A program made the position numbers and the translations under genes. Below, one piece after another: positions 1-19,850 of a stretch of 33,069 nucleotides of DNA. The stretch is from Anaerolineaceae bacterium. GTDB taxonomy: Bacteria > Chloroflexota > Anaerolineae > Anaerolineales > Anaerolineaceae. The stretch spans positions 1-33,069 of the forward strand of contig JAJUGU010000014.1 in NCBI GenBank assembly GCA_029265815.1, written 5' to 3'. Position 1 is the stretch's first letter. Each line of letters begins with the position of its first letter. Below the pieces are notes generated by a model. It was given only the letters and a program-made list of their open reading frames with translations, had not been told where the DNA came from and ran no database searches.

Positions 1-537
<537 letters not shown>

Positions 538-620
538 CTTCATATGGTGCGGGGAACTCGGCACTCTTTGTGAGGACTACATACTATTCATCATTTGGTA
601 ATCTTAACATGTGAATTAAG

Positions 621-742
621 TCTCTTGGTGATTTGAGCGACAGTGGTACACCCGGTCACATCCCGAACCCGGTCGTTAAGGCTGTCAGCGCCGATGGTAC
701 TTGGGGGGCGACCCCCTGGGAGAGTAGGTCGTTGCCAAGAGA
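621..742 (+). rRNA. rrf: 5S ribosomal RNA
   Basis: This is a complete 5S rRNA of about 122 nt. The 5' end TCTCTTGG (621-628) pairs perfectly with CCAAGAGA (735-742) to form helix I. Internal 5S hallmarks are present: CCCGAACCCGG, CAGCGCCGATGGTA and GGGAGAGTAGGTCGTTGCC. It lies about 84 nt after the 23S end, the standard 23S-5S order. Its 3' half is duplicated in tandem downstream. Confidence 0.95.
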
Positions 743-761
743 CTTTTTTCTTTTTAATCAG

Positions 762-793
762 CAAAGCCATGTTAATTTTTACATGGTTTTTTT
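762..793 (+). terminator. rRNA operon terminator, copy 1
   Basis: A hairpin with stem CCATGT (767-772) and ACATGG (781-786) is followed by a run of T residues. The A residues before the stem can pair with part of the T run. It lies just after the 5S gene, as expected for an intrinsic terminator. Confidence 0.75.
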
Positions 794-936
794 GTTTCAT
801 TGTCTGTTTCCAGGTGTTCTAAATACTATCCCTGCTGGTTATTTACGCTGTCATCGCCACTGGTATCTGCGAGGGGGCGACCCCCTGGGAGAGTAGGTCG
901 TTGCCAAGAGACTTTTTTCTTTTTAATCCGCCAAAG

Positions 937-959
937 CCATGTTTTTTACATGGTTTTTT
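937..959 (+). terminator. rRNA operon terminator, copy 2
   Basis: This is the second copy of the hairpin: CCATGT (937-942) pairs with ACATGG (948-953) over a shortened T-only loop, followed by TTTTTT. The loop has lost several bases compared with copies 1 and 3, but the stem is intact. Confidence 0.7.
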
Positions 960-1101
960 GTTTTATTGTCAGTTTCCAGGTGTTCTAAATACTATCCCTG
1001 CTGGTTATTTACGCTGTCATCGCCACTGGTATCTGCGAGGGGGCGACCCCCTGGGAGAGTAGGTCGTTGCCAAGAGACTTTTTTCTTTTTAATCAGCAAA
1101 G

Positions 1102-1128
1102 CCATGTTAATTTTTACATGGTTTTTTT
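1102..1128 (+). terminator. rRNA operon terminator, copy 3
   Basis: This is the third copy: CCATGT (1102-1107) pairs with ACATGG (1116-1121), followed by seven T residues. It matches copy 1 in loop sequence. The fourth unit stops before reaching this element. Confidence 0.7.
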
Positions 1129-1281
1129 GTTTTATTGTCAGTTTCCAGGTGTTCTACATAATATCCTTGCTGGTTATTTACGCTGTCAGCGCCGATGGTA
1201 TCTACGAGGGGGCGACCCCCTGGGAGAGAGTAGGTCGTTGCCAAGAGAGTTTATTCTTTTTAATCCCCCATTGATCAATTG

Positions 1282-1321
1282 AAAACATTTGCCCCTGATA
1301 TTCATCAGGGTGTTTTGGTTT
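1282..1321 (+). terminator. Terminator-like hairpin after the 5S array
   Basis: CCCTGAT (1293-1299) pairs with ATCAGGG (1304-1310) over an ATTC loop. An outer arm AAAACA (1282-1287) pairs with TGTTTT (1311-1316), and more T residues follow. It is unrelated in sequence to the repeated terminator and would be a last stop for the rRNA operon. Confidence 0.6.
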
Positions 1322-1952: not shown

Positions 1953-2894
1953 TTACAACGTTCTACGTTCCCGGTCGTAGTTCTGGCCGAGGAATGCAGG
2001 AACACGCGACTTTCCAAAGGTGAAGATCATGATAATGATCGTGCCGATGTAAGGGAGCATGTTGAGGAACTGGAAGGGGATCACTGAGCCACCAACCTGC
2101 ATACGATAGGAGAGTACCTCGATGCCAGCGAAGAAGATGGAGCCAAGCAAGATGATCAACGGGCTCCAGCCGCCGAAGAAGGTCAGGGCGATCACGATCC
2201 AGCCACGTCCTTTGGTCATAAGTTCGGTGAAGGTACCGGTGTAAACCATAGGCAGATAAGCACCCGCCAGACCGATCAGCATACCACCAATAATTGTGGT
2301 GAGATAGCGATAGCGATTGACACTGATACCGAGGCTATCGGCCGCTTTTGGATTCTCACCCACTGAGCGCAGGCGAAGACCGAGATTGGTTTTGAATAAG
2401 AGGTACCAGAGCAAAATGGAGAGTAAAACCGAAATGTACACCAGTATGTTCTGGTTGAAGAGGATGGGGCCAAGAACCGGGATTTCGCTCAGTAAAGGAA
2501 CAGGGATGTTCTTCAGGGTGGGGATCAATGGCGGGGTCAGGGTGATGCCGAGCACAAGCTTTGGAAGCAGTGTAGAAAGACCGGTTCCCACAAAGAACAA
2601 CGCAAGGCCTACAACGAACTGATCCATTTTCAGGGTTGTGGTGAAGTACGCCAGGATTAATCCAAACAATCCACCGACGAGCATGGCGGCAATTGAGCCT
2701 ACAAAGACGCTTCCGCTGGTGTATCCAACGAGGAAGCCCACTGAAGCACCGGTAAGCATGATCCCTTCCTGAGCCACGTTAAAGACGCCAGTGCGTCCGC
2801 CGAGCATGGTGCCCTGTCCGGCGAGGACGAATGGAACCATGGAAAGGAAGGTTAGTTTTAGAAATTCAACTAGAAAAGTCTCAATGCCTGTCAT
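1953..2894 (-). CDS. ABC transporter permease, BMP/nucleoside type (NupQ/YufQ-like)
   Basis: This 313-residue polytopic inner-membrane protein has about 8-10 hydrophobic segments. It belongs to the BPD_transp_2 permease group that works with BMP-family binding proteins. The family-typical N-terminal segment GRTGVFNVAQEGIMLTGA (about residues 33-50) is present, as is a cytoplasmic coupling region around NLGLRLRSVGENPKAADSLG. It is the last gene of the operon and overlaps the other permease by 4 bp (2891-2894), so translation is probably coupled. The two permeases would form a heterodimeric channel. Characterised relatives import purine or pyrimidine nucleosides, but the substrate here is inferred only from family. 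Confidence 0.9.
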   Translation of the reverse strand: MTGIETFLVEFLKLTFLSMVPFVLAGQGTMLGGRTGVFNVAQEGIMLTGASVGFLVGYTSGSVFVGSIAAMLVGGLFGLILAYFTTTLKMDQFVVGLALFFVGTGLSTLLPKLVLGITLTPPLIPTLKNIPVPLLSEIPVLGPILFNQNILVYISVLLSILLWYLLFKTNLGLRLRSVGENPKAADSLGISVNRYRYLTTIIGGMLIGLAGAYLPMVYTGTFTELMTKGRGWIVIALTFFGGWSPLIILLGSIFFAGIEVLSYRMQVGGSVIPFQFLNMLPYIGTIIIMIFTFGKSRVPAFLGQNYDRERRTL

Positions 2895-19685: not shown

Positions 19686-19704
19686 ATTGAAAATTCAATA
19701 TTTG

Positions 19705-19850
19705 CTTTTTGGTGCCTTTATTTCATGGCTTAAAGGCGAAACCGGTGCATAATCCGGTGCTGTCGCGCAACTGTGATTCAGAGAAATTCTGATCAGCCAG
19801 GTCGCCCGCCAAAAAGTGTGTTACCACACTCTCGCAGAAAGGAGGTGGAC
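19705..19850 (+). ncRNA. Cobalamin riboswitch
   Basis: The conserved core is clear. It comprises GGTGCC (19711-19716), TTAAAGGCGAAACCGGTGC leading to AATCCGGTGCTGTCGCGCAA, CTGTGA (19771-19776), and the B12 box CAGCCAGGTCGCCCGCC (19794-19810). This matches the family consensus of ...GGTG...CC...CTG.C.CGCAACTGT... followed by GCCAGG..ACCTGCC. The 3' boundary is estimated. It precedes btuF and should switch the whole btuFCD unit off when adenosylcobalamin is abundant, through the hairpin that follows. Confidence 0.93.

Follow-up and report, generated by a model that had tools for sequence, protein, structure and literature searches.

What is repeated behind the ribosomal RNA (rRNA) operon at the start of contig JAJUGU010000014.1 of an Anaerolineaceae bacterium (assembly GCA_029265815.1), and how did it come to be there? 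The complete 5S rRNA gene of this operon is followed by three further copies of its 3' part, arranged in tandem among terminator-like sites. The window, by which the whole stretch of DNA analysed is meant, is the entire contig (G000:C19; 33,069 bp), which begins within the 23S rRNA gene and belongs to a 2.58-Mb assembly of 26 contigs. The array probably arose by duplication of the tail of the rRNA operon and its extra units are probably not functional 5S genes, a combination to which a probability of roughly 0.7 may be given; the duplication origin taken by itself is slightly more probable. The parts of the locus are as follows.

1 to 543, forward strand: 3' part of the 23S rRNA gene, truncated by the contig start (Rfam RF02541, 581.2 bits)
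624 to 740, forward strand: complete 5S rRNA gene, copy 1 (Rfam RF00001, 98.1 bits, model positions 1 to 120)
763 to 790, forward strand: terminator-like site T1, a AAAGCCATG...CATGGTTTT stem followed by a T run (fold of 743 to 800, -12.6 kcal/mol, z -4.85)
847 to 911, forward strand: copy 2, 5S-derived 3' part (5S positions from about 58 to the end)
933 to 957, forward strand: terminator-like site T2, the T1 stem with a shorter loop (z -4.35)
1013 to 1077, forward strand: copy 3, 5S-derived 3' part
1098 to 1125, forward strand: terminator-like site T3, the same as T1 (z -4.93)
1182 to 1248, forward strand: copy 4, 5S-derived 3' part with a 2-nt insertion (17.8 bits to 5S, under the gathering score)
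1293 to 1310, forward strand: terminator-like site T4, an unrelated CCCTGAT/ATCAGGG stem (weak in an 82-nt fold, z -1.42)
1953 to 2894, reverse strand: convergent gene, a syntenic neighbour of 5S in the genus (open reading frame; tblastn against the genus loci)

Each of the three units behind the complete 5S gene is about 166-171 bp long and consists of the last 60 nt or so of 5S with an A/T-rich leader. Tandem Repeats Finder placed the repeat at 704-1265 (period 169, 3.3 copies, 93% matches, score 974), and a 57-nt block recurs four times, starting at 703, 872, 1038 and 1209 (spacing 169, 166 and 171). Blocks 2 and 3 are 98% identical to block 1; block 4 reaches only 82% in an ungapped comparison because of its 2-nt insertion. 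The 5S tail scored 113-129 against its three downstream copies, whereas the best of 100 dinucleotide shuffles scored 26. A first-pass annotation, made from the sequence alone, had described a complete 5S gene with three more tail copies in tandem and a CCATGT/ACATGG terminator in the first two, and both descriptions are borne out: T2 and T3 carry the T1 stem, and a different stem follows copy 4. As wholes, the units of about 168 bp are 94-95% identical to one another. Their homology to 5S begins near 5S position 58 and continues to the 3' end, with a 3-nt insertion in every unit and a further 2 nt in copy 4; beside the 5S block, copies 2 and 3 have CATCGCCACTGG in place of CAGCGCCGATGG. A decayed full-length 5S in each unit was considered and set aside: no significant resemblance was found between the 5' part of the units and the 5' half of 5S (p 0.44-0.48 in free local alignment, 0.11-0.13 in anchored extension), so only the 3' part is claimed as 5S-derived. 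Promoter-like sites in 540-2000 number eight (2.4 expected), most of them multiplied by the repeat itself.

The pattern of divergence between copies bears on how the array was formed. Copies 1, 2 and 3 are identical across the 56-column 5S-end block, copies 1 and 3 are identical over the terminator too (0/38), and copy 4 is the only extra copy with changes in the block. The first-pass annotation had contrasted a nearly unchanged 5S block with drifted adjoining bases, and had invoked selection or recent gene conversion. Among copies 2-4, however, the flanks hardly differ (at 3-5 of 59 columns); it is copy 1 whose flank differs from the others (39-41 of 59), because the real 5S gene stands there. 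As judged from the alignment, the sharp border is the junction of a real 5S gene and a repeated unit, not drift round a protected block. With the terminator region excluded, flank and 5S end changed at similar rates in all three comparisons: 3/86 and 0/56 columns for copies 2 and 3 (Fisher p 0.28), 9/86 and 4/58 for copies 2 and 4 (p 0.56), and 8/86 and 4/58 for copies 3 and 4 (p 0.76). The terminator region itself is the most variable, with 7 of 39 columns differing between copies 2 and 3, although the stem is unchanged, and 21/36 and 27/39 differing from copy 4, which has other sequence there. Because the changes among copies 2-4 fall alike on flank and block, there is no sign of selection on the 5S block, and of the two proposals only recent homogenisation is favoured, by the identical block of copies 1-3. 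Unequal crossing-over or gene conversion would be expected to leave identity that stops where a unit ends and that is lowest in the final copy.

None of the extra units attains the Rfam gathering score for 5S (at most 17.8 against 38 bits). Only copy 4 matches the model at all (E 0.75), and copies 2 and 3 are absent among the matches listed up to E 10. Over 120-123 nt, the units fold worse than their mean shuffle (z +1.45, +1.38 and +0.72), whereas the true 5S has z -1.03. A 75-nt version of the test gave z -1.14 to +1.65 for 22 extra units across the arrays compared and -0.21 to +1.21 for six true 5S tails cut alike; as the true tails score no better than the units, the 75-nt test has little power. 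The GGGGGCGACCCCC hairpin of 5S is present in every unit. The poor match to the 5S model and the folding of the units suggest that they do not function as 5S genes.

The first-pass annotation had proposed a comparison with related Anaerolineae. At the level of species, no partial 5S copy was found in any of the 13 other members of the genus for which a 5S end was available. The convergent gene, which from the look of its protein is a putative ABC-transporter permease, lies about 1210 bp behind 5S in the window; in eight relatives (G001, G003, G004, G005, G008, G009, G010 and G011) the same neighbour lies about 60-1170 bp behind 5S, with no array between them. Because these relatives lack the array at the same syntenic site, it is most simply regarded as derived in this lineage. 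The 5S gene of G009 is decayed (77% over 92 nt; L035, G009:C36, 2021-2111) and lies about 60 bp before the convergent gene. In G012 a second complete 5S gene stands 384 bp on (L036, G012:C15, 2831-3335, minus strand); in G013 the sequence behind the 5S end resembles that of G012, with a run of N in the following stretch. The test for partial copies looked only downstream of the best-scoring 5S match and missed the second complete 5S genes of G012 and of G104, a genome of the family outside the genus; loci without a 5S end gave no row, and L001, L002 and L053, which are copies of the window, were excluded. The stretch from the array to the convergent gene (1267-1900) had no blastn match in the compared stretches of 14 relatives.

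Within its own assembly the array has no counterpart for comparison, because only one 5S gene was found in the 26 contigs and a second operon is therefore unavailable. A search for 23S rRNA of the same kind as the 5S search gave no match and missed even the piece in the window, so that a single operon is not proven. That piece is detected by Rfam, and the sole 16S rRNA match in the assembly is a fragment on contig C23. Elsewhere in the window there is a cobalamin riboswitch at 19693-19827 (58.9 bits), and the very end of the contig (32834-33069) is a 43-bp tandem repeat of 5.5 copies with 98% matches, which may be the cause of the assembly stopping there.

Repeated 5S tails recur in another genus of the same family (g15), in 12 of the 17 genomes for which a 5S end or tail was available: G122, G123, G124, G125, G127, G131, G133, G140, G143, G145, G147 and G148, those of G123 and G124 being weak. 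By the same test G029, G130, G132, G135 and G141 have none. There are four extra tails in G133, three each in G145 and G127, and five tails about 102 bp apart in G125. The compared stretches of G125 and G148 contain tails but, owing to a run of N or to the start of the contig, no 5S over the Rfam cut-off; a position behind 5S is presumed there. Exact matches to the tail number 24 in g15, of which 23 coincide with a 5S end or have a 5S end or another tail no more than about 1 kb away; the exception is in G123:C1, with no 5S in the compared stretch. The extra tail of G131 carries the ACATT variant of its own 5S, which was not seen in the other genomes listed with it and points to local origin or conversion. 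Outside g15 and the genus of the window, partial tail copies were found at none of 57 loci of 50 genomes, which were picked from best-match lists and multi-match rows rather than at random. One of these outside genomes, G104 (L100, G104:C66), has two 5S genes about 1 kb apart, at 1-86 (cut by the contig start) and 975-1091. Common ancestry of the window and g15 units was considered and is not claimed, the only matches being of 12-13 nt. The tail of the window together with its leader had no exact match in a collection of named genomes. Copies of the 5S tail also turned up among palindrome-like repeats, such as TTGCGAGCGCCGTTAGGCGCGTGG in L068 (G123:C1) and L072 (G135:C175) and GATCCAGCCGGTGTCCCACCGTGCTGG in L064 (G127:C16). 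By title and abstract opening, no paper among the open-access matches listed concerned such arrays in Chloroflexota.

Four terminator-like sites thus stand in series between 763 and 1310. The first three share the CCATGT/ACATGG stem, with loops of 8, 5 and 8 nt, and fold far below their shuffles, in keeping with stacked termination, which the first-pass annotation had suggested would give a stronger stop, as a plausible consequence of the repeat. In the arrays of the window and g15, a terminator-like site follows within 85 nt of 12 of 22 extra tails, including the three of the window, compared with 3 of 288 background windows; terminators therefore accompany the copies without being universal. 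For a tail to be counted 18 of 25 letters had to match, the single tails of G122 and G148 were not counted as extra, and one of the two G135 tails overlaps a run of N.

A history that would account for these observations is that a segment reaching from inside 5S (about position 58) to beyond the terminator stem underwent tandem duplication in this lineage, and that the identical 5S-end blocks then recombined by unequal crossing-over or gene conversion, which expanded and homogenised the array, the end copy (copy 4) being homogenised least. Recombination between identical 5S ends would be the generator. Polymerases passing T1 would meet T2, T3 and T4, an arrangement like that of the T1-T2 ends of rrnA, rrnB and rrnD of E. 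coli, and the 5S-like tails would appear in short read-through RNAs only incidentally. Several points weigh against this account. No origin is recognised for the flank of about 45 nt in each unit, which leaves the first duplication junction unreconstructed, and the copy number comes from a single draft assembly, where copies 2 and 3 hardly differ. Serial termination is the predicted main effect of the array, and the fold of T4 is weak, just slightly under its shuffles. By the criteria used, no terminator accompanies 10 of the 22 extra tails across the arrays compared, which makes the 5S tail, and not terminator stacking, the common feature of the arrays. That the cell benefits from serial termination is put forward only tentatively, at somewhat less than even odds.

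The strongest of the other explanations, though improbable, is that the units are read-through RNA genes, transcripts passing T1 being cut at the tails into short regulatory or sponge RNAs. In E. coli, according to one account (PMC8144298), the elements rrA, rrB and rrF between T1 and T2 of rrnA, rrnB and rrnD give rise to RNAs that bind Hfq and CsrA, and RNase E is suggested to recognise the repeated tail. The window has the same layout as rrnB T1-rrB-T2, where such RNAs were detected, and the tails of g15 recur even where no terminator was detected. The window nevertheless has no similarity to rrB (best blastn match E 0.62 over 12 nt), its units fold no better than shuffles, and none occur in the 13 other genus members. 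Searches that find their targets in E. coli gave no match to CsrA, RNase E/G or Hfq in the genome of the window, which is rated 99.43% complete, although a gene in an assembly gap is still possible; the only match to RNase M5 was far under the cut-off (20 against 110.65 bits). With these proteins not found, explanations specific to E. coli do not transfer as they stand, and the RNA-regulator route as such is unlikely here.

There is a small chance, below that of read-through RNA genes, that assembly distorted the copy number and that the true locus has fewer or more units. Repeat units of this size (about 168 bp) and identity (94-95%) are difficult to resolve with short reads, and copies 2 and 3 of this single draft are nearly identical. 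Several positions do distinguish the units, however, and repeated 5S tails occur in genomes from several separate records. The notion that truncated copies act as decoys, titrating 5S-binding proteins or 5S maturation enzymes, which the first-pass annotation had also raised, could draw on the hairpin in each unit and the weak 5S match of copy 4, but is very improbable, as the units do not fold like 5S, and copies 2 and 3 have changed bases beside the 5S block and are not among the listed matches to the 5S model. Equally improbable are scars left by small mobile elements inserting at the 5S 3' end and repeating it, like elements that target tRNA genes: such integration leaves an intact gene followed by direct repeats of the gene's 3' end, but units of about 166-171 bp are too small for an integrase, the entire unit is repeated rather than the tail alone, and exact tail copies in g15 stay beside 5S or another tail, one untraced place excepted.

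Tail duplication of the rRNA operon, the explanation preferred here, produces a layout that is already known from E. coli and some other bacteria, to which the window adds a case. The tRNA-linked repeats (TLRs) of E. coli, as described in PMC8144298, were first reported in 1978 and lacked a known function until roles were proposed for rrA, rrB and rrF. There are 22 of them, spread over ten loci with one to five units each, and they match the 3' end of the gene before them exactly over 18-19 bp. As in TLRs, the 3' end of a stable RNA gene is repeated behind that gene, with a terminator before and after. The three extra units of the window lie directly downstream of the 5S gene at 624-740, the first of them after T1, and all three share AGTAGGTCGTTGCCAAGAGA with the 5S end; in position the array fits the definition of a TLR. 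Our analysis recovered a copy of the 5S tail just before T2 in rrnB and rrnA of E. coli, and a second full 5S with a further tail copy in rrnD; by the same analysis rrnC, rrnE, rrnG and rrnH have no repeated 5S tail. The window differs from the E. coli repeats in duplicating about 60 nt of 5S instead of 18 bp, and in having three units instead of one.

A second likeness is to the 5S remnants of Peptococcaceae and Pseudoalteromonas, which stand behind a normal 5S, sometimes in several copies, each after a putative terminator, and were judged likely not to be transcribed (PMC7812874). The units of the window likewise lack a terminal part of 5S, lie behind a normal 5S and are each preceded by a terminator, but those remnants have a large insertion in the 5S-like core where the window units have only 3 nt, with 2 nt more in copy 4. 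Tandem complete 5S genes (rrfD-rrfF of E. coli, G012 and G104) also repeat 5S behind the operon; their second 5S is complete, whereas the extra copies of the window have no 5' half. A broader generalisation is possible, though it is rather unlikely to hold: repeats of stable-RNA 3' ends may be a general outcome at the ends of rRNA operons, recurrent in Anaerolineaceae and not an enterobacterial oddity. As searches for CsrA, RNase E/G and Hfq found none of them in the single array-bearing genome examined, a shared cause would be tied to the 5S tail, through recombination at the end of transcription or through tail processing, and not to the small-RNA role in E. coli. What interest the locus has, which is modest, comes from meeting the same layout again in a lineage remote from E. 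coli: the arrays of Anaerolineaceae, with array-less relatives at the same site, offer a second, independent system in which to ask what drives the duplication of 5S tails and whether two or more terminators bring an advantage.
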